Source: a virus. From it: a stretch of 36,246 nt of DNA. The stretch lies in the IMG/VR virus record IMGVR_UViG_3300032020_000029, positions 1 through 36,246 of that record; one strand, given 5' to 3'. The notes under the pieces are model-generated. The model did no database searches. It had not been told where the DNA came from and saw only the letters and a list, made by a program, of their open reading frames with translations. Position numbers and translations under genes: made by a program. Shown piece by piece: positions 4,101-34,020 of the stretch (within the stretch, counting starts at the first letter, position 1; every line of letters starts with the position of its first letter).

Positions 4101-7100
4101 AATGAGGGGAGTCCTTGAATCATCATAGCTGAGAAGTCAAGAGCTGCCTTAGTTATTCTTAAAATACCAGCTGCATCGCTGGTAAACTTGAGAGCCGAAC
4201 TCCCCTTTTCTATCCCGAAGAACTTGTTACAGGCATCAATGAAATCTTGATTGAATATCCTGCCACCAGCAAAAGGCATGGGTAGATAACCTTCTCCGAT
4301 ACCCGCTTGTCTGACAATCTCCATCTTGGCTGCCCGTTCCGCCCTGGCCTGCCAGTATGGTGCTTTGCGAGCCTCTACCAAGGCTTTAGCTTCTTTAGTT
4401 AGAGTGTCAAATGCTGCCTTCCGTTCGGCTGCCGTCATAGCATCTGGCACGGTAAACTTGACTTGCTGAAATTCGGTCTCACCTGAAAGCTCGCTAACCC
4501 CCTCTATCTTGGGTTTGACATTGACATAAGGCATCGGTAAACCCTGTTCCTCGTATGTTTCGACTAGCTTCTTATAGTCGTCCATCGAGATTTGGACTAT
4601 TTCACCCTTACCTTTCGGGGTAACGGGTGTTGTATAGCCGAATATGTCTAGTTGTAAGCCTGCTTCTGGCATACCAGCTTCGGCGGTGGGGATTGCTACT
4701 CCATAACGGTCATAGATAAGCCGTTGTAAAACATTTTGAGCAGCAGGAGATAAATCTTCCCATTTGGATTCTGCTATTCTCTCTCCCACCTTGGTTAATT
4801 GCCCTTTATTATTAACCCACCCACCAGCTTTCACTAAGTCCACCTTGACACCAAGTTTTGCACTATCCCAGCGTTCTTGTGGTATTATTTTAAGTGTAAC
4901 CTCTGGGGTAACACCTTCTACTCCTCGCTCGTAGGGTACTCGTTTTTCCTCGATGGCTTGCTGAACTTCAGAGGCGGACAACCTATCTGGCACTCCGCGA
5001 CTGAGTAGGTCTTTATACCTTGTGGGGAACATCTCCGCAAGGCTAAGCCCCTTCCAACCTGGTTCATGCGGTTCTGCATAATACTTAGTAAGTTCCTCAT
5101 AGCGTGCTGGCTCAGGATACCTACCTGACTTAATAGCCTCTTCGTATTCTGCTTCGCTAAGCTGAAGAAATTCATATCTTGCCTCCCTTTCTGAAATCTC
5201 TGGTGGGATAATCTCCCTCTCCGCCACTTCAGGTCTGCCTTCGACATCTTGTAATATCCCCAGCATCCGTTTTATTTGTTCTGCCCTTCGGCTGGCATCG
5301 TCAACTAAAAGTCTAAGGTCTCTCGCCCTCTCTTTAAGGTCGGCTATCTGTTCTATCTTATTGACAAGTTCCTGCTCACTCATACCAAAGTGGTCAGCGA
5401 GTTCGTCAATGATGTATTCCCAGCGAACATTGCCCTCTTTGTCAAAGGCTCCGGGTTTGAGTTCCCTGCCCATCAACAGAATCTGGGCATTTCTTTTAGT
5501 TAGCGTCTCGGGCATCTGTCCTTCTTTCAGGACATCGGTGAGGGCTACCTTCTTGGTCTGCTTTAAGCCCTTCCGTGTGGTAATCGTTATCTCTGCTTTA
5601 TAAGACGCTACTGGGTCGGTTCTCAGAAACTCCTCAACCCCTTCAAGTTCGCTTTCCTGCTCAGCAACCATCTCGCCTATCTCTTGAAGCTGAGTTGCCA
5701 TCGTGTTACGCCAAGAAAGTCTATCCTCATAATCCATAAGATTGAAGGCTTCCCGGAGTTTCACTTCATCAGGGACAATGAGAGGTTCTACTTTTGGCAC
5801 CTCCCTTGCCTCTTTTGCCTTCGCCAGTTCTGCCTTTAGACTTCTGATAAGTTTCTCATTCTGTGATAATAATTGTCTTAATTGGTTTTCAGCAGAGGCT
5901 GGTATTTCAATGAGTGCCCTTAACCTTGCACCAAGCTCAGGAAATCGCCTCTCGATTGCACTGAGCGTTTGGGTAGGCAATCTCTCCCCCCTCTTAGCCC
6001 TGTTGATTGCAGATTGCAATTTAGCAGCATCGGCAAGCTCTGTCTTTGTCAGTTCCGCCCGCTTTGCTATTTCAGGGAATCGCTCTAATAGTCTCTCAGT
6101 GGGGGTAATACCAAACTCCTCAACGAACTTGGAGAATCTCTCTCCAGCTATCTCTTTGAAAGCCTCCTCAATATAGCTTCCTATTGAGGCTTCGATATTC
6201 GGCTCATATTCAATCCCTGCCTGTATCCCCTCTGCCATCGTCCTGAAAGAGCGTGGCTTTTTGTATGACGGGACGGCACCAGGTTTTCTGCCTGTCACGC
6301 CAGGTTTGCCTCTCACTTCCACCACTTCTCCTTCGACTGTCTTACCTGTAACTACCCGGTGGATCCACCGTTCATTGACGGTATTAAGTGCTACACCTTC
6401 CTTTTGCAAGAGTGCGAATATCGCTTTATTTATGCGATTGATTAAGGTTACATACTGCAAGCCCTTATCCATCCCTGTCCAGTCATACATTTCAGGATGG
6501 GTAAAGACATGCTCTAGTGTCCCAGCATTCTCTCGTTCGCTTTCGTATTGAGCAAGCAACTTCCCCGCCATCTTCGCTGAGTAACCCACTTCGTTAAAGC
6601 CGAAGAATTTGACGGAGTTCTCTATTGTGTTTCTCAAAACACTGGTCATCACCTTAGCGGCATTTCCGCCTATTCGGGTGATAGCCCCATAAACCACGGC
6701 GCCACGTCCTACTATATCCTCGGTTAGCTGACTTTCCTTGCCTATCAGGACTCGCCAGCCTAAAACCGCTTCCTCAACTTTCTTGATTACCGGTATCCTA
6801 GCAAGGGCTTTAACTGTTGTTCTAATCCAGTTCGGGATTATTAAGCCATCAATTAGTTCCTGACTTGTTGGTATCGTCAAAAGAGGTTCAGGAATATTAA
6901 CAAGTGGGATGCTAGGAGCTTTCACTCCCAATCCCATATCCCCACCAGGCACGACTAAATCAGGGTTAGACTCTTGAATCTGAGTCATTTTCTGCTTCGC
7001 CTGTTCTTCATCTAGTCTTGCTCGGTTTTCCTCAGTTAATTGCTCGCGGTACACTTCACCTTGCACATCCTCTGTTGCCTTCTTAACGAGACCAGCTACT

Positions 7101-8875
7101 TCGGGGTACTGGTCAATCACAACATCCAGTGCCTCGATTGTAGTTAAACCCTGCTTTATATTCTTATCAAACAACACTTTTTGCTCAGGTGTAAGACCCA
7201 ACACTGACCTATCTGTAATACGGGTGATTATTTCACCACCAGCACCAAACCCCAGACCAGCAATAGAGCCGAGCGCAAAAACCAACTGCATCTCAGGGTC
7301 AGTTAAATCCACCTCTCTACCAAGAGCTTGGTTGATAATCATCTCTTGATAAACTTCCTCCCCGCCCTCAGTTAATCCTTCAAAGACTAACTTCCCACCT
7401 ACTCGTGCTATGCGAACCAACCCTCTCCTTACCGCACCTATAGCCGAGGTGCCTATTGAACCAGTTGGCATAAAAGCCACAGCTAACTGTGCAGCATCAA
7501 GACCCACCAGCCTCATATTCTTATTGAATACCTCATCCGCCGCTGCATCTGCTTCCTCATGCGAAAGCCCTTGATACCTAGCCTGGTCATAAGTACCACC
7601 AGCTTCAAGAGCCGATTCTAATGGTCGCATAAGCGCAGCACCACCTATACCCTGTAGGATAGTTTGTAAGACACGCCCTAACTTCAGCCCGATTATGCCT
7701 TTGGCGACAACACCAGTTACCACTGGGCCTACTACCGCTCCAACGGCAGCGAAACCCGTTATGCCTGCCACCACCAAAACCATCAGAGTTGGCAACATGC
7801 GCAGTCCATAAGTCGCATAGAATTGAGGATTGAATAGTTGTCTCCAGCTAAACTCACCTGGCTCAAACGGCACAGGCTCAGCCTTTGCCTGCATATACTG
7901 ACCAAATTTAGCTATCTTCTCACCTATCCCACCATGACCAAGCCACTTGAAAATACCGCCCACATTCGCTACTAGGTCGCCTACTCCAGCAGTGAATGTT
8001 CCCCATTTCCCCCTTCCACCTACAGCCAATTCTTCCTCAACAATGAGTGACAAAGGGTTGAAGTAATCAGCTAATTGTGCTTCCGTGATTCCTGGGTATA
8101 GAAGGTGCACAAGTTCATCCGTCTTTTCGTTCCTGCCCTCACCCAGAAGTGAGGCTCTTAGTGCATCAGGATTGGCAGAGAAGTATGCCAGCATCGTGTC
8201 CACATTCTTGGCCGTTACTGGCTTTAACGCTTCAATAAATAGGAGTTTAAGTGCCTCAGCACCAAATATCTGCCCTAGCACTTCCTCGGTTACACCCTCA
8301 TACATTGCTCTCAGGAGTGCCTCTGTCTCTGGGGTTCTGCCAATTTCTATTATGTCTTGAACGAAAGCCTCGGGCTGAGATTGGGCATAAGCTAAGATTT
8401 CCTCAACACTTTGCTCAGGGAAAACCCTGCCAAAGATTTGCTCAATCTCCAAACTAGGCATCCATGTTTCCTCTACTGACGGGATATACCCTACGCCTAG
8501 AGCTGTTTCAAGCTCGCTCTTAGTGTATTTCTCTCCAGATGGTGCGATGTATAAATCATCCTCCGTAATCTCCCACTTCTCAGGGGTGATTAGACTGGAA
8601 GTGTAACCCTCTCCCGCTGGGGTCATTTTAAGTAGCCACCCTTCCTGAAGCGAAAGCCCCATCTGTTGAGCCTCAGACGGGGTGAAGAATAAGGGCATAT
8701 CGGGAAATGCAGTGGTTAATTGCCTCTGCTTGATTGTCTCGGTGAGCTGTGGGTACAACTCTCGCATATCACTTAACGATGTCCCATATTGCGACAAGAG
8801 GCGTTCGATTTCAATATCTTTCGCCTCTCGGTATTGACTTAATAAGGTCTCTTCCTCTAATGCAAATGCACTCAT
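1118..8875 (-). CDS. Giant internal virion / ejection-type protein (large polyvalent protein-like)
   Basis: A 2585-residue protein filling 21 percent of the genome, between portal and scaffold genes. The N-terminal ~290 residues are helical with two similar units (EILAYAQSQPEAF; TMLAYFSANPDAL). Residues about 358-415 are strongly hydrophobic and Gly/Val-rich, followed by an EGLTEGGEEVYQEM motif near 500 and another Gly-rich hydrophobic stretch near 530-550. Residues about 900-1250 are coiled coil. Residues about 1745-1950 (SFMWFAPNYTRA, a membrane-like helix near 1772-1795, GNYTFGPGGFWYGFVRL, SPVTGMGFDLATGKDFLG) resemble the LPD38-type domain of phage large polyvalent proteins. The last 500 residues carry repeated LxNPExD / HPEL units. 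Hydrophobic tracts and position suggest a protein packaged in the head and ejected with DNA, as T7 gp16-type proteins are; this is inference. No polymerase or lysozyme motif was recognised. Confidence 0.75.
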   Translation of the reverse strand: MSAFALEEETLLSQYREAKDIEIERLLSQYGTSLSDMRELYPQLTETIKQRQLTTAFPDMPLFFTPSEAQQMGLSLQEGWLLKMTPAGEGYTSSLITPEKWEITEDDLYIAPSGEKYTKSELETALGVGYIPSVEETWMPSLEIEQIFGRVFPEQSVEEILAYAQSQPEAFVQDIIEIGRTPETEALLRAMYEGVTEEVLGQIFGAEALKLLFIEALKPVTAKNVDTMLAYFSANPDALRASLLGEGRNEKTDELVHLLYPGITEAQLADYFNPLSLIVEEELAVGGRGKWGTFTAGVGDLVANVGGIFKWLGHGGIGEKIAKFGQYMQAKAEPVPFEPGEFSWRQLFNPQFYATYGLRMLPTLMVLVVAGITGFAAVGAVVGPVVTGVVAKGIIGLKLGRVLQTILQGIGGAALMRPLESALEAGGTYDQARYQGLSHEEADAAADEVFNKNMRLVGLDAAQLAVAFMPTGSIGTSAIGAVRRGLVRIARVGGKLVFEGLTEGGEEVYQEMIINQALGREVDLTDPEMQLVFALGSIAGLGFGAGGEIITRITDRSVLGLTPEQKVLFDKNIKQGLTTIEALDVVIDQYPEVAGLVKKATEDVQGEVYREQLTEENRARLDEEQAKQKMTQIQESNPDLVVPGGDMGLGVKAPSIPLVNIPEPLLTIPTSQELIDGLIIPNWIRTTVKALARIPVIKKVEEAVLGWRVLIGKESQLTEDIVGRGAVVYGAITRIGGNAAKVMTSVLRNTIENSVKFFGFNEVGYSAKMAGKLLAQYESERENAGTLEHVFTHPEMYDWTGMDKGLQYVTLINRINKAIFALLQKEGVALNTVNERWIHRVVTGKTVEGEVVEVRGKPGVTGRKPGAVPSYKKPRSFRTMAEGIQAGIEYEPNIEASIGSYIEEAFKEIAGERFSKFVEEFGITPTERLLERFPEIAKRAELTKTELADAAKLQSAINRAKRGERLPTQTLSAIERRFPELGARLRALIEIPASAENQLRQLLSQNEKLIRSLKAELAKAKEAREVPKVEPLIVPDEVKLREAFNLMDYEDRLSWRNTMATQLQEIGEMVAEQESELEGVEEFLRTDPVASYKAEITITTRKGLKQTKKVALTDVLKEGQMPETLTKRNAQILLMGRELKPGAFDKEGNVRWEYIIDELADHFGMSEQELVNKIEQIADLKERARDLRLLVDDASRRAEQIKRMLGILQDVEGRPEVAEREIIPPEISEREARYEFLQLSEAEYEEAIKSGRYPEPARYEELTKYYAEPHEPGWKGLSLAEMFPTRYKDLLSRGVPDRLSASEVQQAIEEKRVPYERGVEGVTPEVTLKIIPQERWDSAKLGVKVDLVKAGGWVNNKGQLTKVGERIAESKWEDLSPAAQNVLQRLIYDRYGVAIPTAEAGMPEAGLQLDIFGYTTPVTPKGKGEIVQISMDDYKKLVETYEEQGLPMPYVNVKPKIEGVSELSGETEFQQVKFTVPDAMTAAERKAAFDTLTKEAKALVEARKAPYWQARAERAAKMEIVRQAGIGEGYLPMPFAGGRIFNQDFIDACNKFFGIEKGSSALKFTSDAAGILRITKAALDFSAMMIQGLPSFGLAHAMLLRSPRIGIKLMGGWYKALGESTVAFFNPGVFYGYMEKNQDAVLQRVSFLGSSRAVDYFEALRGKHGLGKIAAWTLGKIPLDPFARAEMAFYSAGEIVRNEFWKALSDKAIKQGKGFELARHLDLMTGLAQAEGVPLTVRQLESSFMWFAPNYTRACLSLLADVFRGGYTGAKAKQALGGLMVAGVVYYVGIQMAMALLSGKDEDDAWEAVKEGLGIREDPITHEVIWRPLSDFLGIKIGNYTFGPGGFWYGFVRLIGNISECINTVGDKERIDLVQILKHGGLNKDNPFVYWWYSRSSPVTGMGFDLATGKDFLGYPIETPWEYARYIMTRFEPIWMEQGINWMIPGLTRDYEIPEGVARAAVPIFEIFGWRSIPESSWVRFYDKAEDYIKQIPRDELDDLQIEAWEAGKLGWGELTKKQRQDLLTRYPELAELYEDAQNDSKIRQTPEWKAYTDRIDEERAIYYERIDELTRRLQAGEIDTTTYRELCSEAGQNYGSIIEAISRDPTYRSIFEYFDKKEAEGSKYEFKWDLAYAEYNSQIRFAEDAGMYLANGDYNWNERDRRIAAFVEKHGEELYNEILNYIATTKEEKGLNPLWVKKGQDSEKLSREYWNLPYKPIIEMTQEDFDQGNIPAEYYNLWKTYQGMAEADKEGFIALNPNLAKDWRAEYRLANPEADAMLALWGYGGKLQSMEAYNLVVKWGQELGIPLEQMGLGLPPQNLIQDYFGYNQLGFSGNSAESKLWRLQHPEFTNWAMENWNWEGTEDYRGIEYYQLQIKWRDAQAEYDAFGDRKSPQYIAGDDAREKAREQYLTSHPDFRDDRNRMKAMDVDFPKHLIEDWVEWYAESRSGYEDDWFLMEHKEFYDTMYKLGIWTEQKDFSKVPTREVYKLYQEYSGLPEGQARLNFRHEHPELDAWMLLAGKVTKLVGDRWTTTDPNLANRKYWLDMASHYTDLLKNLGIREDITAEELTDYQAQRIEDAIRELRGF

Positions 8876-9036: not shown

Positions 9037-10729
9037 TTGGCTCTCCTTCCTCTTTAGTTGCTCTACCCCCTCCGCCTTTGAGTAGTTGCTCCACAGCTTC
9101 CTTCTTTTGTGTTCCTTCCTCTTTAACCTGTCCTTCAATCGGGCTTAACTGCCCCATCGCCCGCCTCTGCTTTAAGATAGTTCCTATTCGGTCTCTTAAG
9201 ATACGAGCTCCAATCTGGTCTGCTATGGTCGGTTTTTGCCCGTTCTTTTCCTCAAGGAGACTCTTTCCACTATTGAACAAGAATAGAACCTCATCAATTT
9301 TCTCTGCCCGTTCAGCCCTCAGTTGAGTCAACAACCCAGTTGGGTTTTCAGCCCTTATTATCTCTCTAACAATGTAATCATCGGGGAGAATGCCACGAGC
9401 AGCAACCGCAAATTGTAAGTCAGCCATCAACTGTTCCTTTGACATAGTGCGGAAGGTATATTCAATCGAATAGTCTCCCTCTAGGTCGGCTTTCGTGTAA
9501 TTATTCTTGCTTCCCTCTTTCCCAAGTTCCAATTTCTCGTCAAGCTGGATGCACTGCTTAATACTCATCCCACTTATAGCTTGATAGAACCAAGCCTTTG
9601 TATTTACTCTCGGCGCAAATATGTCATTCCTCGAACCCGTCAACTGGGTAATTGCTATATTGGATAGCGGGAATTGCAGCGTACCATAATCAATAGCTGA
9701 TAGACTTCCTCTCTGTAGCGAAGTCTCTAGCACTGAGTAGTACAAACTTGTAGCATTCTTAATGTCGGCAATGGGCATGAACTTGTAACCACCACCCTTC
9801 TCAACGCCATGTACTGTCTTTTGCTTATACGGTGATTTCTCAGGTTTGGGCATATTTTCCCCGTGAGAACTTTCATACTGTAGTGCCCTGAATAGAGAAT
9901 CTATATTCAATGTTCGGAGTATGGTAATCGCCTCATTCTTTTTATCCCAGAGGTCACGGTTAGCCCAAAGTAAACTTTCCCCCTGGTGTTCTATGGCATC
10001 TTCTGTCCCCAAGGTCGAACCAGTAGGACAGATAACACAAACGAATGGCACATACCCATAAGGGTTAGGCTGCTCTCTGACTATTTGCTTGTCAATGAAG
10101 ATGACGTTCTTTTCGGAGTCCCAGAAGTCAACAACCTCAGCATACTTCTCTATCTTTACAGCCCTGTCTCCTGGCTTGGTATATTCCCTCTCAATTTGTG
10201 CCTTTGATTGTCTGAACCAAGGAGCAGCCCAAACCAAATCATTTCCGTCTATATCGTCGGTATAACACCGAGTATCTATCGGCAGGACATCGGGAATTAA
10301 ACCTCTCTCTTTATCAATTCTCATACATATCCGAGCAGCAATTCGCCCTCTTATGCCTAACTGTTCATTAAGGAAAGCATCTAGTCCCGGTATTTTCCGC
10401 TTTGGCAGATTTTCGTCTACCATGTAGAAAATATCTTTGAGAAACTGCTCGATTGTATTAGTTTTCGTATCGCTCAACCCCCTCCCCTCAATAATAGTTT
10501 GCCTTGTAGCCCCACCCAGGATTGATATGCCTTTTTGAACATAAATCAGGGCATCAGGCAGAGTCGTATTAGCGACATCTTCCATTTCTTTTTTCCCGTC
10601 AAGCTGCATCATCTTAAACGGCTTTAGGAGATATAACGCTTCGTCCACACCCATGCGGTCAAAGATAGGCTTCATCTCCTCTTTTTTTTCTTCGAATAAT
10701 TTGTACTCTTCTCTCGATTCGTCGCTCAT
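9029..10729 (-). CDS. Portal protein
   Basis: A 566-residue protein directly downstream of the terminase genes and upstream of head genes, the normal portal position. Residues 1-60 are a charged helix with an Asp/Glu-rich start. A central alpha/beta region (residues about 150-260: DTRCYTDDIDGNDLVWAAPWFRQ, PYGYVPFVCVICP) resembles the clip/stem-flanking region of portal proteins, and the C-terminal 90 residues are Gln/Lys/Glu-rich, as in many portals. It would form the dodecameric DNA channel at the head vertex and dock the terminase. It is shorter than P22 gp1 (about 725) but usual for phage portals generally. The last ten bases overlap the next gene. Confidence 0.82.
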   Translation of the reverse strand: MSDESREEYKLFEEKKEEMKPIFDRMGVDEALYLLKPFKMMQLDGKKEMEDVANTTLPDALIYVQKGISILGGATRQTIIEGRGLSDTKTNTIEQFLKDIFYMVDENLPKRKIPGLDAFLNEQLGIRGRIAARICMRIDKERGLIPDVLPIDTRCYTDDIDGNDLVWAAPWFRQSKAQIEREYTKPGDRAVKIEKYAEVVDFWDSEKNVIFIDKQIVREQPNPYGYVPFVCVICPTGSTLGTEDAIEHQGESLLWANRDLWDKKNEAITILRTLNIDSLFRALQYESSHGENMPKPEKSPYKQKTVHGVEKGGGYKFMPIADIKNATSLYYSVLETSLQRGSLSAIDYGTLQFPLSNIAITQLTGSRNDIFAPRVNTKAWFYQAISGMSIKQCIQLDEKLELGKEGSKNNYTKADLEGDYSIEYTFRTMSKEQLMADLQFAVAARGILPDDYIVREIIRAENPTGLLTQLRAERAEKIDEVLFLFNSGKSLLEEKNGQKPTIADQIGARILRDRIGTILKQRRAMGQLSPIEGQVKEEGTQKKEAVEQLLKGGGGRATKEEGEPNA

Positions 10730-14017: not shown

Positions 14018-15085
14018 TTACAGTTTCTCATTCACTTTAACATCATATTGCGCCGTTACGCCTCGCTTTGGGGATATAAAAAGAACCCACTGCCTAGGAT
14101 CGTCTTGTAAACCAAGTCTATAAAGAGGGTAAGCAGACCCACTCGCCCAAGTCCCATTAACAAAAATCGGGATTCCTGAAGGGCGGATATAATTGCAGAT
14201 ATGGAAATGACCCATAAAGCAATATTGCCACGTCCCTGGGATAGAAACATTCCATCTTAAAGTCCTTCGGTCTATGCCATAAAACGGTATGCCTAAGTAT
14301 GATGGAATCTGATCTCCGTGAACGAGAAGAATTTTTATATTGAAGATGTTTATTACCTGATAGAATTCGTTCTCCTCGATATGAAAGTGTATCTTCTCAT
14401 AGTTTTTAAGCCCTTGCTCAAGGATTTTATAAACGAAGGTATCCCAGTTCGTCTTTGCCGATATGCTTCGCCTTCCCTCAAGTTGCCCATGATTCCCGCG
14501 GACACAGTAAACCTCTATTTCGTCAAATAGCTGGAGATGACTTACTAAGAGGTCATTCAGCACTGGCACCGCCACTTCAAAGATTTGGTCTATCACTACA
14601 TGTTCCAGCTCTTCAAGTTTCGGGATAGGCACATTCATATTCTCAATAATGTCTCCCAATAAGCAGATATGGAGTTTCTTAATAGGTCTCATTTTGCGGT
14701 GCAGCTCACATAGCTTTAAACTCTTTTCCGTGAATAACACCGCCTCTTGTTTGAGAATCTTTGCATTGAAAGTCGGCGATTTCTGCCCAGCCTGTAAATC
14801 GGAAAGTAACAGAACTTGTGCCTCTTCGCCCTCTTGCTCGCTCACTTGAGGGATGGGTGTAATCTTAATCTCCGGTAGGGATTTAACTTCAATATCTTTT
14901 GCCAGAACCATAGGTTCAGGAATTTGTTTTAATGGACTATCACCTTCAGAAATCCAGCCTTTTAAGGTATCAAAGGCAACCTCATATTGCTCGGCTAATT
15001 TGAGCCTTCCAGCATGGTCAGCCTTATGATATGCCTCAACTAGCTTTTGATATTCTTCACCACTTGGCTTTTTACGTTGTGTCAT
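14018..15085 (-). CDS. Calcineurin-like metallophosphoesterase with N-terminal helix-turn-helix region
   Basis: A 355-residue protein. Residues about 10-48 form helices ending in VAFDTLKGWISEG, like a small helix-turn-helix. From residue 90 the metallophosphoesterase motifs appear in order: LLLSDLQAG (Asp96), GDIIEN (144-149), RGNHG (196-200), VHGD (255-258) and GHFH (292-295). The first motif is D-x-Q where the family normally has D-x-H, which would alter one metal ligand. Such phage enzymes are usually compared with Mre11/SbcD-type nucleases or nucleotide phosphodiesterases; substrate cannot be told here. It is coupled by ATGA overlap to the preceding small membrane protein gene. Confidence 0.85.
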   Translation of the reverse strand: MTQRKKPSGEEYQKLVEAYHKADHAGRLKLAEQYEVAFDTLKGWISEGDSPLKQIPEPMVLAKDIEVKSLPEIKITPIPQVSEQEGEEAQVLLLSDLQAGQKSPTFNAKILKQEAVLFTEKSLKLCELHRKMRPIKKLHICLLGDIIENMNVPIPKLEELEHVVIDQIFEVAVPVLNDLLVSHLQLFDEIEVYCVRGNHGQLEGRRSISAKTNWDTFVYKILEQGLKNYEKIHFHIEENEFYQVINIFNIKILLVHGDQIPSYLGIPFYGIDRRTLRWNVSIPGTWQYCFMGHFHICNYIRPSGIPIFVNGTWASGSAYPLYRLGLQDDPRQWVLFISPKRGVTAQYDVKVNEKL

Positions 15086-15246
15086 TCTTTACGATGCCTT
15101 CGTTTGTCTACGTAAGCCAAAATGAGAATCCCGCCGATTATTAAACCAAGATAGATAGGTGAGATATTAACTCCCATTTCCCTAAATATACTTTCAGCCT
15201 CAAGGCAAACTGCCGTGCAAAGAGCAAGTTCCAACCAGTTAATCAT
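15082..15246 (-). CDS. Single-pass membrane protein, 54 residues
   Basis: MINWLELALCTAVCLEAESI starts at an ATG overlapping the stop of the upstream gene (ATGATTAA). A membrane helix spans about residues 29-45 (ISPIYLGLIIGGILILAYV) and the tail DKRRHRKE is basic. The stop overlaps the phosphoesterase start as ATGA. Overlaps on both sides support translation. Function unknown; it may tether or be cotranslated with the phosphoesterase. Confidence 0.68.
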   Translation of the reverse strand: MINWLELALCTAVCLEAESIFREMGVNISPIYLGLIIGGILILAYVDKRRHRKE

Positions 15247-17011: not shown

Positions 17012-17041
17012 TAAACGCTCGTTTAGTAGTGTTTTCCCTTA

Positions 17042-17131
17042 TTAAACAAAAAAAGGCGAGCCCGGGATTTCTCCCTGAACTCGCCTCCAGTTCCTATGTC
17101 TGCACTCTATCAGTTTTACGCCGTCAATCAT
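17042..17131 (-). CDS. Possible 29-residue protein reading through a terminator
   Basis: MIDGVKLIECRHRNWRRVQG starts at an ATG overlapping the stop of the nuclease gene (ATGA) with an AAGGAATT box. The last third is encoded by the terminator stem and its T-run, giving SPFFV before the stop. The coupling supports translation; the short length and overlap with the terminator argue for caution. Confidence 0.35.
   Translation of the reverse strand: MIDGVKLIECRHRNWRRVQGEIPGSPFFV
17048..17086 (-). terminator. Strong intrinsic terminator ending the early block
   Basis: Minus strand GGCGAG (17085-17080) pairs with CTCGCC (17060-17055), with an inner GGGA/TCCC stem on a GAAA loop, and a run of seven T follows. 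It lies after the NinG-like nuclease gene. Confidence 0.85.
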
Positions 17132-17508
17132 AATTCCTTCAATAATTGCTTCAAATATAACTTATCGAGAAAGTCGTCTCTCTTTTTGTAGCAGTGTGCC
17201 CTAAACTCAAGAAGGTCGTAACCTTTATCGCCTAATCTCTTCCTCATAAAAGCCGTGTATTCCTGTCTGCCGTCTCCATGCCCCCAGGCGAAGTTATGAT
17301 GATACCAGCAGAGCGAGATACAATTCTCAGGGTCAAACCTCGTATTCTCATGCCCGCGGCCCCAATAATGGCTACAATGCAATCCCCGTTTGTTCTCAGA
17401 GTAGTCCCTGCTATTCTCTCCACAAGCTAGGCATCGCCAGCCATCCCTTGCCCGGATGTAGTTTGAGAATAAGATGTCGGTTTTCCTCTCTTTAACCTTG
17501 AACATCAT
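17128..17508 (-). CDS. NinG-like / HNH recombination endonuclease
   Basis: A 126-residue protein with the NinG/Rap layout: FSNYIRARDGWRCLACG (residues 15-30) with Cys26 and Cys29, then LHCSHYWGRGHENTRFDPENC (residues 43-63), then LCWYHHNF with Cys67 and paired His. The His/Cys residues form the HNH-type metal site and structural zinc. Lambda NinG (Rap) resolves recombination intermediates; the same role is likely here but unproven. It overlaps the methyltransferase gene before it (ATGGAGCTATGATG junction) and is the last gene before a strong terminator. Confidence 0.78.
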   Translation of the reverse strand: MMFKVKERKTDILFSNYIRARDGWRCLACGENSRDYSENKRGLHCSHYWGRGHENTRFDPENCISLCWYHHNFAWGHGDGRQEYTAFMRKRLGDKGYDLLEFRAHCYKKRDDFLDKLYLKQLLKEL

Positions 17509-22557: not shown

Positions 22558-22780
22558 TTTTCTCCTGATAAGCCTGATAACTTGGTCGTAGTCTTCGCTT
22601 CAGGTTAATTTCCTTCCTAAGTAATATCTCGGGATCAAGGGACTTTGCCCGCGACCCCCGGGGTGCCCGGTATAAAAGGCATTTCCAATTGTTGCAGGTA
22701 CGAAGATAGTAACTTCTATTGAAGTCAATCTCTATCAAGGGCTGCCCGCATCGCGAGCAAGCTATGTCTAGTTGTGTCAT
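22541..22780 (-). CDS. Zinc-ribbon protein (79 residues)
   Basis: Start at the ATG at 22780 (MTQLDIACSRCGQPLIEIDF) with an AAGAGGAATAGA box. Cys8, Cys11, Cys29 and Cys34 form a CxxC...CxxxxC zinc site, followed by a basic helix (KEINLKRRLRPSYQAYQEKNDKRN). Layout suggests a nucleic-acid or protein-binding adaptor. The longer reading from 22837 has no site before it. The end overlaps the transferase-like gene by 17 bases. Confidence 0.65.
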   Translation of the reverse strand: MTQLDIACSRCGQPLIEIDFNRSYYLRTCNNWKCLLYRAPRGSRAKSLDPEILLRKEINLKRRLRPSYQAYQEKNDKRN

Positions 22781-22803
22781 TCTATTCCTCTTAATCGAGC
22801 CTT

Positions 22804-22974
22804 TTAATCCTTCTGTAGTTCCTGGGTTTCTCGCCAAGAGCGTTTTTTTATTGGGATGATTAACCTGTCTGGCACTTCACCTATGGGGAACTCAGTTATA
22901 AAATAAATATCGGCACCTTTCGCAGCATAGGCATTTTCTTTTAGCCATTTTCTTACTTCATTTGTTATTTTCAT
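22804..22974 (-). CDS. Small protein behind the structured leader (56 residues)
   Basis: MKITNEVRKWLKENAYAAKG starts at 22974 after AGAGAGGAGGGATAA, giving 56 residues with an amphipathic first helix, a strand YFITEFPIGEVPDRLIIPI and a basic tail. It is the first gene after the folded segment 23008-23152, so any control by that RNA would act on it. No family recognised. Confidence 0.6.
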   Translation of the reverse strand: MKITNEVRKWLKENAYAAKGADIYFITEFPIGEVPDRLIIPIKKRSWRETQELQKD

Positions 22975-23007
22975 TTATCCCTCCTCTCTTTAAGAAGCTC
23001 TTATTCT

Positions 23008-23152
23008 CTGGCAGGGCTGGTTTAGCGTGCCAATTAAAGTGCCTGCCGTGCACTCACCCTGCCAGTTTTGTGCTGGCTCGGTCAACTTCCCCCCCTTACC
23101 GATGCTCGGCTTCGCTATCTGCTATCACCGATGAATCTGGGACACCAGCACA
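23008..23152 (-). ncRNA. Putative two-domain structured RNA leader
   Basis: Read on the minus strand: domain 1 is closed by an 8-bp perfect helix TGTGCTGG (23152-23145) with CCAGCACA (23076-23069) around about 68 bases that include a CCGA-GCA-TCGG hairpin. Four bases later domain 2 is closed by a 9-bp perfect helix CTGGCAGGG (23065-23057) with CCCTGCCAG (23016-23008). Inside domain 2, AGTGC/GCACT and TTGG/CCAG make two further helices, so it folds as a three-way junction. It occupies the 182-base gap between the ssDNA-binding and 56-residue genes. No U-run follows, so it is not simply a terminator. I know of no matching riboswitch. Confidence 0.55.
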
Positions 23153-23156
23153 TTTT

Positions 23157-23909
23157 TTAAGATTCAATCCCTTTTGCTTTCTTTATCTCTTCCCAGGCTT
23201 GGTCTAAATCAACGAGGTCAATAAATGAACCGATGCTTAGAATCTCGTATACCTCTCGTGTGCCGACTTTGTGCTTTGCCATTAAACCCTTTAGTTCGGT
23301 TATGTTCTGGATTTTCTTACTGGCAGGCATTGAGGCAGATTTTTTACCTAACTTCTCCCAGTCTTCGCCGTTAGTTTCAGGTGCCTCTACTATCGGCGCT
23401 GAGGTTTTAGCCGGTGCAGAGGTTTTAGATTTTGACTTGGACTCAGGCGCTTTGGCGAGTTCATTCCTCTTCACCCACGCATAAAAGACATCAGCCTGAT
23501 TGATTATTTGTACTACGGGTATTTTCTCTGCTACAGCGAGGTCTTTTGCATAGGAAAGCACCATTACCCTTGCCTGTTGCTCTAACTCCTCCGGGGACTT
23601 CCCCCTGTAGAAGTTGCCTCCTTTCGTGGCTATCGGCTGCCCGTCAATATAAACCTGGACAACACGCCGGTCTGTGTATTCGTTACCCTCCCAGTCTCGT
23701 GTTGAGGTCTCTACATCGGCACTGATTGTCTGTCCTTGTTTGATTGAATCAAATAGGCTGCTCTTGAAGGTGAAATATGTTAATTCCTTGTCTCCGTCTT
23801 TGGCCTTGAAAGACAGCTTAGGGATTTGTTTATCTCCTACCTTCTTGACTTCCTCGACCTGTGTTATTGTTAGGTTCTTGCGTTCTGTCTTTCTCTCTCC
23901 TTCAGCCAT
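23157..23909 (-). CDS. Probable ssDNA-binding / OB-fold recombination protein
   Basis: A 250-residue protein next to the exonuclease gene. Residues about 10-100 alternate strands (KNLTITQVEEVKK, KLSFKAKDGDKELTYFTFK, GQTISADVETSTRDWEGNEYTDRRVVQVYIDG) as in an OB fold binding single strands. Residues about 115-150 are helical. A flexible Ala/Pro/Ser/Lys linker (155-180, KSKSKTSAPAKTSAP) leads to a small helical C-terminal domain (ITELKGLMAKHKVGTREVYEILSIGSFIDL). It probably coats single-stranded DNA during replication or recombination. The assignment rests on strand pattern, linker and operon place, not a recognised family signature. It overlaps the exonuclease by eight bases. Confidence 0.6.
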   Translation of the reverse strand: MAEGERKTERKNLTITQVEEVKKVGDKQIPKLSFKAKDGDKELTYFTFKSSLFDSIKQGQTISADVETSTRDWEGNEYTDRRVVQVYIDGQPIATKGGNFYRGKSPEELEQQARVMVLSYAKDLAVAEKIPVVQIINQADVFYAWVKRNELAKAPESKSKSKTSAPAKTSAPIVEAPETNGEDWEKLGKKSASMPASKKIQNITELKGLMAKHKVGTREVYEILSIGSFIDLVDLDQAWEEIKKAKGIES

Positions 23910-24558
23910 TTTTAACCTCCCTTTGTAATCTGTAAATTTCTAAGCAATGTTCAAATATTTGCCAGCGTCTGTCTAGTTCATTGATAAGGCGATCCTCGAA
24001 TCCTTCGTCTGGTGTTCGCCCGACACGTAGGATAATCGCCTGATCAACCTTGTATCCATGTTCAATGAGAAGTTGCCTGTAAGCAACAACCTGTATCATC
24101 ATCTCAGGGAAAATCCCACTTGATGTCTTGAAGTCCAGTAGGCACAGACTGCCATTCATCTGTCCTAGACAATCAATAGTTCCACCGAACTTGTATAGCT
24201 CGCTTACCATAGGCTCTTCAATAAGGACTAGCTCTATGTGGTGGGTTTTCTCCCACTCAAGGAAAGACAGCACTGCATTTTCCGCCTGGTCTATTTGAAC
24301 CTTTGAGTATTCGCTAGTGTCTGTCTCTTTGCGCTGGAGATAGTCGGCTATCATCTGGTGAGTCAGTGTTCCGATTGCTGCCTTTTCATCAACATACTTA
24401 GACGAATCAATCCCCTGTAGCCCAAGGTTATTCGCCCATTTGACCAGTGCCGGCTTGTTCAAGACACTGAGAATCGTAGTTACCCCTGGCACGATTGTGC
24501 CATCTTTCAGTGTATATCTTATATGTGCTCTACTTCGCTTCGTTACTTGTTCTACCAT
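23902..24558 (-). CDS. PD-(D/E)XK exonuclease (RecB/Cas4-like)
   Basis: A 218-residue nuclease. Motifs in order: GTLTHQMIADYL (63-74) with the helical His, an acidic EEPM (114-117), GGTIDC with Asp129, LLDFKTSSG with Asp142 and Lys144, then QVVAYRQL with Gln156 and Tyr160. This matches the RecB-nuclease or Cas4-like exonuclease pattern. No Cys cluster is seen, so an iron-sulphur site as in Cas4 is unlikely. It would resect DNA ends for recombination or degrade host DNA. The ATG at 24558 has AAGGAGGTAACTG before it, and the start overlaps a zinc-ribbon gene. It pairs with the ssDNA-binding protein downstream. Confidence 0.88.
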   Translation of the reverse strand: MVEQVTKRSRAHIRYTLKDGTIVPGVTTILSVLNKPALVKWANNLGLQGIDSSKYVDEKAAIGTLTHQMIADYLQRKETDTSEYSKVQIDQAENAVLSFLEWEKTHHIELVLIEEPMVSELYKFGGTIDCLGQMNGSLCLLDFKTSSGIFPEMMIQVVAYRQLLIEHGYKVDQAIILRVGRTPDEGFEDRLINELDRRWQIFEHCLEIYRLQREVKNG

Positions 24559-25309: not shown

Positions 25310-25427
25310 TTCTCCTCCCTAGCTCTTCAATCCTTATGTTCCCTCTTTGCTGGCAGAACAAGTCCAGCAACTTGCCCTTACCTAAAATTTGTTTTGCCGG
25401 GCCACTAAGGCGAATAACTAATTTCAT
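25290..25427 (-). CDS. Tiny basic protein (45 residues)
   Basis: MKLVIRLSGPAKQILGKGKL starts at 25427 with AAGGAGGTACGCA, which lies in the end of the HNH gene. It overlaps the HNH gene and the next gene start. Basic, unknown; the strong site supports it. Confidence 0.55.
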   Translation of the reverse strand: MKLVIRLSGPAKQILGKGKLLDLFCQQRGNIRIEELGRRNETDKV

Positions 25428-25974
25428 TGCGTACCTCCTTCATTTGCTTCACTTCTAATCGCAACAATCTGATTTCTTGCTTTAGTTCTTGGATTTGCTT
25501 TAGCCTGCCATCTTGCACTCCCCTCTGGTAGCCATCTCGGTATCCCTTCGTGTGAATTCTTATGTGCTCGCCAATGCTCGGTGCCAATATGAGATTCTCA
25601 ATCTGGTTATCTGTTTTTATTCCGTTCTTGTGGTGGACATTCTCCCAGACGGAAAGGCATCGTCCTAGATGCTTTGCCATAACAAAACGATGTTCCCTGA
25701 CATATCCGCATTTTTGGGTCATAGGATAGAAGAAATCATTTGGGCGGACAAGAACCATAATATAGCCCATCGAGTCTAAGATGCGTCCACCTTTCCATTG
25801 GTGGGCTCTGTTACCCTTGTGGGCACACGAGCTACAGCGTTCTCTAACTGGCTTTCCCTTACACAGCTGAACCCATCTCGCCTTCCCGCAGTCAACGCAG
25901 CCATACCAGATGTAATAATAGTGAGTCTTGTAGCCTAACTCAGGCCCTTTTCTGGTTTCACCTATTTCAGGCAT
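25405..25974 (-). CDS. HNH homing-type endonuclease with zinc cluster
   Basis: A 189-residue protein. CVDCGKARWVQLCKGKPVRERCSSC (residues 26-50) gives two Cys pairs for zinc. GYVREHRFVMAKHLGRCLSVWENVHHKNGIKTDNQIENLIL (residues about 89-129) is the HNH_3 catalytic core, with the HH dyad and the closing Asn. A coiled-coil tail (QIQELKQEIRLLRLEVKQM) follows. It is a paralogue of the 33445-34020 nuclease, sharing the same core and coil. Such free-standing HNH genes are usually selfish elements that nick unoccupied DNA, or packaging helpers. The start overlaps the HTH gene by eight bases. Confidence 0.82.
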   Translation of the reverse strand: MPEIGETRKGPELGYKTHYYYIWYGCVDCGKARWVQLCKGKPVRERCSSCAHKGNRAHQWKGGRILDSMGYIMVLVRPNDFFYPMTQKCGYVREHRFVMAKHLGRCLSVWENVHHKNGIKTDNQIENLILAPSIGEHIRIHTKGYRDGYQRGVQDGRLKQIQELKQEIRLLRLEVKQMKEVRNEISYSP

Positions 25975-33444: not shown

Positions 33445-34020
33445 TCAAAGTTCTAACTCCCGTATTCTTTTTTTCAAAACCCTATTCTCTCTTTTGAGTC
33501 TTATGATTAGTTTATGCTCGTTGGTTATGCCGGTATGCTCATACAGGGGGTAAAGTTCCAAGTTTTCAATGCGGTTATCATCTTTGATTCCGTTGAGATG
33601 GTGGACAACTTCATGTCTCTCTAGAGAACGACCTAAGTGTTGAGCCATTACGAGCCGATGTTCAAGGACATGACCACAAGTTATCATGCTCTTAAATTTC
33701 TTTGGAACAAGACCATCCCTGATGACGATATAACCGCCATGGTTCTTGTATCGCCCTTTCCAAGTCGGATTTCTTTCTCCTGTGTAATGCTTTTTTCGGC
33801 AAGCCCAAGAGCAATAGCGTCTAGGTTTCCCCCTTTGCAGCATATTGGATGGGTAATCCCTAAATTCCTTGCCACAACATTGACACACCATTTTGATATA
33901 TGATGGATTTGTGCTCTGCCATAGTCTGTAACAAGCTCTTGAGCAAAACCGATTTTCCCTTTCCGTATGTGCGTGTCGTTCAAAGTCCTTTCCACAATAA
34001 TGACATACATAAGTTGGCAT
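33445..34020 (-). CDS. HNH endonuclease with two zinc finger pairs
   Basis: 191 residues. Two similar Cys pairs lie in [20 protein letters not shown] and CQCCGKEF, with partner Cys in [10 protein letters not shown] and [10 protein letters not shown]. The HNH_3 core is [41 protein letters not shown] (about 116-156), followed by a coiled tail ([18 protein letters not shown]). It shares core and tail with the nuclease at 25405-25974, so one is a copy of the other's lineage. It is an insertion between structural genes with its own promoter (34041-34049), as expected for a homing gene. GGAGGTGCTATT precedes the ATG. Confidence 0.84.

Follow-up and report, generated by a model that had tools for sequence, protein, structure and literature searches.

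What is the folded, non-coding segment that separates a putative single-stranded DNA-binding (SSB-like) gene from a small gene in a phage early operon, and what could it do? We addressed this question in a virus sequence of 36,246 nucleotides (IMG/VR virus record IMGVR_UViG_3300032020_000029, positions 1 to 36,246, referred to hereafter as the window), for which an initial annotation had proposed a two-domain folded RNA between these genes. Exact helices and the folding score of the transcribed strand bear this proposal out, and one of the two domains (D1, upstream of its neighbor D2) recurs in other phage contigs. Our best account of the segment, to which we give a probability of about 0.4, is a single unit (D1 with its neighboring D2) of a recurrent structured sense RNA of the phage early operon, acting in cis in the manner of the HK022 put RNA.

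Results

A folded segment separates an SSB-like gene from a small gene

The genes flanking the element all lie on the minus strand, in the order exonuclease, 250-aa gene, gap and 56-aa gene (Table 1), and the gap has exactly the 182 bases originally given for it. Coding within the gap was considered and rejected (the longest minus-strand frame has ~31 codons, begins with TTG and has no counterpart in L003, a relative described below). The structural model of the 250-aa protein is of low confidence overall (mean pLDDT 58.6, with values of 71-90 in blocks of residues 11-90), and its best-named Foldseek matches are single-stranded DNA-binding proteins at E 4e-4 to 1e-3; PHROG and Pfam searches returned no match, and the prokaryote genomes searched held no relative of the gene. 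Because the name rests on a low-confidence OB-like barrel and on Foldseek matches of this order, the initial description of the gene as ssDNA-binding is plausible, though unproved.

Table 1. Features of the locus in the window, in the order of transcription.
Feature	Position	Strand	Basis or remark
Cas4-type exonuclease gene	23902..24558	-	PHROG 298, E 1.4e-30; tblastn matches are annotated phage Cas4-family exonucleases
SSB-like gene, 250 aa, upstream of gap	23157..23909	-	Predicted N-terminal OB-like barrel and Foldseek
Non-coding gap with the element, 182 bases	22975..23156	-	ORF list, three-frame translation, fold z -2.6 to -3.0
Domain D1, recurrent unit, upstream domain	23069..23152	-	Common to L051 (2 units) and L062 (3 units)
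D1 helix P1, 5' arm UGUGCUGGU	23144..23152	-	
D1 5' bulge, starts GUC	23132..23143	-	GUC after P1 in 6/7 D1 units; exception L003
D1 helix P2, 5' arm UCGGU, first of two possible copies	23127..23131	-	
Second UCGGU, alternative P2 5' arm (bistable)	23098..23102	-	Fold energies; L051 unit 1 aligns to second copy
D1 helix P2, 3' arm ACCGA, directly abuts P1	23078..23082	-	
D1 helix P1, 3' arm GCCAGCACA	23069..23077	-	
Domain D2, 9-bp closing helix (10 with U.G), three-way junction possible	23008..23065	-	
Shine-Dalgarno-like AGGAGG of the downstream 56-aa gene	22980..22985	-	Sequence
56-aa gene downstream of gap	22804..22974	-	ORF list; family searches without match

Two inverted repeats define the element. 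CTGGCAGGG (23008-23016) pairs with CCCTGCCAG (23057-23065) over an exact 9 bp, and TGTGCTGG (23069-23076) with CCAGCACA (23145-23152) over an exact 8 bp, such that both closing helices are as perfect as first reported, but they stand three bases apart rather than four. On the minus (transcribed) strand each helix gains one U.G pair, which brings them to 10 and 9 bp, respectively. Two perfect repeats that do not overlap, one of 8 bp or more and one of 9 bp or more, arose together in just 2 of 5000 shuffles that preserved the dinucleotides of the gap; among 1596 control stretches of 182 bases from five phage contigs, 5 contained such a pair. Folding scores for the minus strand were z -2.32 (145 bases), -2.78 (a 186-base stretch) and -2.58 and -2.99 (the gap); on the plus strand z fell to about -1.0 to -1.2, with 29 of 200 shuffles folding equally well (z -1.00). 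The z value alone does not single out the element, since other gaps in the window reach similar values (-2.97 for 17012-17127). The folded two-helix segment itself is real.

Strong folding of other kinds occurs both in the window and among its relatives. The gap at 17012-17127 (minus strand) contains a strong hairpin with seven T behind it, which on the coding strand resembles an ordinary intrinsic terminator, and three non-coding gaps of relatives (G004 9237-9478, G002 15029-15134 and 17310-17389) have z of about -5. The element was rightly distinguished from a plain terminator at the outset: its transcribed strand has no U-run (six T follow 23152 on the plus strand only), and no intrinsic terminator, taken as a GC-rich hairpin with a U-run, was found in 22700-24000.

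Domain D1 is best described as an elongated and partly bistable hairpin

The initial annotation also placed a three-way junction in the second domain. Such a junction is contained in the minimum-energy fold of the plus strand, within 23069-23152, but on the transcribed strand it is one of several near-equal folds (minimum -28.0, junction form -25.6, alternative -23.5 kcal/mol). P2 of the window is bistable, in that its one ACCGA can pair with either of two UCGGU copies. A three-way form (UCGGU/GCCGA plus UCGGU/ACCGA) is not needed as the sole fold of D1, because units L051U2 and L062U2 (introduced below) fit the nested form and L051U1 fits the other. Two further candidate structures were rejected: a conserved three-way junction in D2, found by a fixed rule in 2 of 5 D2 domains, the window's not among them; and a pseudoknot between the D1 GUC bulge and a G-rich loop, for which shuffled loops did as well (146 to 986 of 1000, in 6 of 6 units).

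The element is not conserved in place

Using the exonuclease and the SSB-like protein as queries, we identified seven other IMG/VR contigs, of which one (L004) ends inside the gene and was excluded, leaving six informative relatives. The sole large folded gap at the homologous place is that of L003 (291 bases). L002 and L010 have gaps of 66 and 67 bases, each with one conserved GC-rich hairpin, and the gap is absent or nearly so in L028, L029 and L030 (the last a weak relative). With the gap short, absent or near-absent in five of six, the element is not conserved in place, and positional conservation beside the SSB-like gene was rejected. The initial annotation had looked to covariation among homologous gaps, and had counted absence of the segment there against a folded RNA; the segment is indeed absent at the homologous position in five of six, yet D1 does covary when units located elsewhere, in more distant phages, are compared.

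The short hairpins of L002 (8207-8272) and L010 (5664-5730) are of the GGGGGCATTGTCCCCC type, have no U-run and stand directly behind the SSB-like gene. L002 further differs in gene order, two genes (6648-7491, one with an HNH-type motif by eye) separating the exonuclease and SSB-like genes that adjoin in the window. Elsewhere in the window, two minus-strand genes (25405-25974 and 33445-34020) have matches at loci that overlap in the same relatives and appear to be paralogues; the former is HNH-endonuclease-like.

The first hairpin of L003 has the P1 core of the window (UGCUGGU/GCCAGCA), while in its two outer pairs both partners differ (A-U and C-G where the window has U-A and G-C). It lacks both the GUC and the 5-bp P2, and the similarity of its D1 interior to the window's is no greater than that of shuffles. 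L003 shares P1 and no significant interior similarity, and we rejected it as a certain homologue; its membership in the D1 family is possible.

Domain D1 recurs, singly and in tandem, in other phage contigs

Viral contigs were scanned with a pattern made up of the P1 arms and GGTAAG alone, without GUC or P2. This returned 18 stretches, about the number roughly expected by chance, most of them within long open frames (those of L051, L062 and L003 are not); the P1 arms of L051U2, L062U2 and L003 accordingly match by selection. Among the 18, only L051 and L062 resemble the window in having both GUC behind P1 and, directly against P1, a P2 of 5 bp or more. A single other distinct stretch (L064) has such a P2, without GUC, and none of the remainder has either feature. 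A further unit that the pattern had not requested, L051U1, lies ~250 bases upstream of the other L051 unit and matches the window at both ends, over 12 bases each (TGTGCTGGTGTC, identical in the window's D1, and ACCGAGCCAGCA).

The clear D1 units thus number six in three contigs, five of them in two contigs. All six have (U)GCYGGU-GUC...GCCAG and, immediately next to the first helix, a second one, P2, whose arms differ between contigs: UCGGU/ACCGA in the window, UCGGC/GUCGA in L051 and UGGUAG/CUACCA in L062. Loop lengths range from 18 to 108 bases across units. In L051 (minus strand, about 3443-2705, two D1 units) and L062 (1166-1912, three D1 units) the units form non-coding arrays of ~700 bases together with D2-type hairpins, as opposed to the single unit of the window. 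L062 comes from a contig distantly related to the window, with which it shares several genes at about 27-53% identity; the 12.4-kb contig of L051 has no genes in common with the window at E 1e-6. An RBS-like AATTAAAAAGGAGAATCAAAA precedes both the second RNA unit of L051 and the gene starting near 2705 (minus strand), as if units had been copied with a gene start.

D2-type hairpins (GCCAGCC/GGCUGGC, once GCCAACC/GGUUGGC, changed on both sides) follow D1 in L003, L051 and L062, at a spacing of 0-9 bases compared with 3 bases in the window. The D2 of the window carries its own arm sequence, differing from these; a D2 model found no convincing D2 elsewhere, and an exact 20-mer of D2 had no match in viral contigs.

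A covariance model built from the window D1 only ranked L051U1 first (E 0.21), L051U2 third (2.5) and L062U2 thirteenth (9.5) in 32,100 bases, E-values that are weak, as expected of a model built from one sequence; when run on the window and its nearer relatives (167,928 bases), the model matched the window alone. A two-helix descriptor free of sequence did not discriminate and was discarded (107 matches in 276,142 bases versus 125 in the reversed control). Anchored on GGTGTC, a descriptor gave 9 matches in 567,083 bases, 4 of them known units, versus 1 to 7 for four permuted anchors. BLAST of the gap against phages and plasmids gave short matches only (E at least 2), and BLAST of the arrays (L062 against phages and plasmids, L051 against phages) gave none. 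Rfam 15 likewise had no match at E up to 10 in 22950-23200 or at the gathering threshold in the window, and none in L051 or L062 at E up to 5; raising the limit to 10 over L051 and the first 20 kb of the L062 contig yielded two unrelated sub-threshold matches only. No description of the D1 motif was found in the literature searched, which is not proof of absence.

Helix P2 covaries

When the seven units (L003 included) are aligned, four of the five P2 pairs are changed on both sides and 96.4% of cells are paired, against 13-45% in slid controls. Pairing guided the choice of the P2 arms and the search partly determined the P1 arms, so that for P2 shuffled interiors provide the better control: all 6 GUC units have a P2 of 5 bp or more directly against P1, whereas 2000 shuffles of each unit's interior gave such a helix 72 to 142 times. 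Units within one array are related and so do not count as independent. The innermost P1 pair is U.G in all seven units.

Strand preference and a promoter match at the first base of D1

Comparison of coding strand with complement gave z of -4.85 versus -1.79 for the L062 array and -2.99 versus -1.18 for the window gap; there was no difference in L051 (-2.06 versus -2.07), and L003 showed the reverse (-1.88 versus -2.19). L062 carries a sigma-70 promoter match of 12/12 (TTGACA-17-TATAAT, ending at 1204), and the usual start seven bases past it is G1211, the first base of GCUGGUGUC and the first base of D1. At a threshold of 9 of 12, 1.4 promoter-like sites are expected by chance in this region; a 12-of-12 match placed exactly at the D1 start is unlikely to be fortuitous. 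Between the hexamers of this match, within 1176-1211, an inverted repeat (AGTCCCC-AAA-GGGGGACT) takes in the 17-base spacer. A search immediately upstream of the window copy found no promoter, and a comparable one was likewise not found upstream of the L051 or L003 units. The L062 array has no terminator-like site on its own strand, and L051 has one weak site on the array's strand (2987-2973). The SSB-like gene is directly upstream of the element in the window and L003; in L062, SSB and Erf genes are upstream.

Discussion

These observations make D1 very probably a real RNA family that is absent from Rfam, membership of D2 and of L003 being weaker. The element probably works as a sense RNA rather than as DNA, and we lean, by a little, toward its acting in cis, on its own transcript. 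Its anatomy suits cis action on elongation or on the message. We envisage that a sense RNA beginning with, or containing, D1-D2 units would be made within the early operon for replication and recombination. D1 would adopt an elongated hairpin, comprising P1 (UGCUGGU/GCCAGCA), a 5'-side bulge starting from GUC, and P2 stacked directly on the 3' arm of P1; the next gene would follow the D1-D2 units with no clear terminator between (one weak site in L051). The nascent RNA would then modify the elongating RNA polymerase and permit read-through to the downstream genes, as HK022 put RNA does, although such a put-like action on elongation, drawn from analogy, is a tentative suggestion and taken singly somewhat unlikely.

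Several other explanations deserve weight. The segment could be a non-specific intercistronic structure, made of hairpins that follow the SSB-like gene and shield the upstream message or keep translation units apart, with sequence of little importance. The relatives speak for this at the homologous place, L002 and L010 having only their conserved GC-rich hairpin, L028, L029 and L030 no gap or almost none, and L003 other hairpins; yet the P1 sequence, GUC and the abutting P2 are found again in distant phages, with as many as three units per array, none of which a generic stabilizer needs, and we consider the explanation unlikely. We view with similar doubt a trans-acting small RNA or decoy, whose units would be processed from the early transcript to bind a host or phage protein or RNA: the tandem arrays of L051 and L062 and the L062 promoter match, with its expected start on the first base of D1, would suit it, but the L062 array has no terminator-like site behind it on its own strand, and the window copy sits between operon genes with no promoter of its own.

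Less likely again is a single-stranded DNA element (an origin, a single-stranded DNA promoter or an SSB-related site) that folds when the strands part. The neighboring SSB-like, Cas4-type exonuclease and Erf genes would fit, and the authors of the STAXI study considered such an element for a similar context (PMC2864571). Against this stand the U.G pair of P1 in all seven units, a weak argument since G.T pairs are possible in DNA too, and, for the window and L062 but not for L051 or L003, a coding strand that folds better than its complement. A self-cleaving ribozyme or ligand-sensing riboswitch, as proposed in the initial annotation, is very unlikely: the bistable P2 of the window, with two UCGGU for one ACCGA, could be cited for it, but nothing else emerged in its favor, Rfam has no match at the element (E up to 10) or in L051 and L062 (E up to 5), conserved unpaired bases are few (GUC), and loops vary widely in length. 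That an ordinary spacer folds by chance is the least probable of all; it would account for a modest z in one sequence and for the 29 of 200 plus-strand shuffles that fold as well, but not for a repeat pair found in 2 of 5000 shuffles, nor for recurrence and P2 covariation.

If the reading as a recurrent structured sense RNA is right, the segment might represent an undescribed modular class of phage RNA, D1-D2 units standing singly or in tandem at the first base of the early transcript or between early genes and reprogramming RNA polymerase (or host RNA machinery) without a phage protein, a proposal we regard as speculative. RNA-only control of phage transcription is, to our knowledge, known from very few phages, and a modular RNA that recurs next to SSB, exonuclease and Erf genes in uncultivated phages would extend it. 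D1 also illustrates that a motif missed by sequence search and by Rfam can be found starting from two inverted repeats, and the D1 and D2 units are short enough to be synthesized and assayed in a laboratory strain.

Comparison with known systems

The ornate RNAs GOLLD and ROOL are large structured non-coding RNAs met in phages; the element differs from them in having no Rfam match, and its units are short and modular. STAXI belongs to Rfam's families, whereas no curated Rfam model matches the element, L051 or L062. In gene context STAXI is nonetheless the nearest known system, with SSB-type genes nearby: it is a structured element that occurs in repeats close to SSB genes and others that handle DNA, and consists mainly of a pseudoknot in which UUCG loops are frequent (PMC2864571). 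STAXI is repeated two or three times; L051 and L062 carry arrays, the window a single unit. Its pseudoknot core sets it apart from D1, in which bulge-loop pairing is no better than with shuffled loops.

In terms of function, the closest working analogue would be the HK022 put RNA, likened here by anatomy rather than by comparison with put sequence, and with no claim of membership. The put RNA belongs to the phage early region and forms two stem-loops, putL lying just downstream of its promoter (PMC9378689). The window's D1 and D2 are likewise neighboring stem-loops; the L062 array lies just past a 12-of-12 promoter match, and the window copy has no promoter match just upstream. The put RNA is smaller (~70 bases, in two copies per genome) than the 145 bases found here, with arrays of up to three D1 units. 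Antitermination by put needs no dedicated protein and involves contact with the zinc-binding domain of the RNA polymerase beta' subunit, an action of a type that the D1-D2 units may share.
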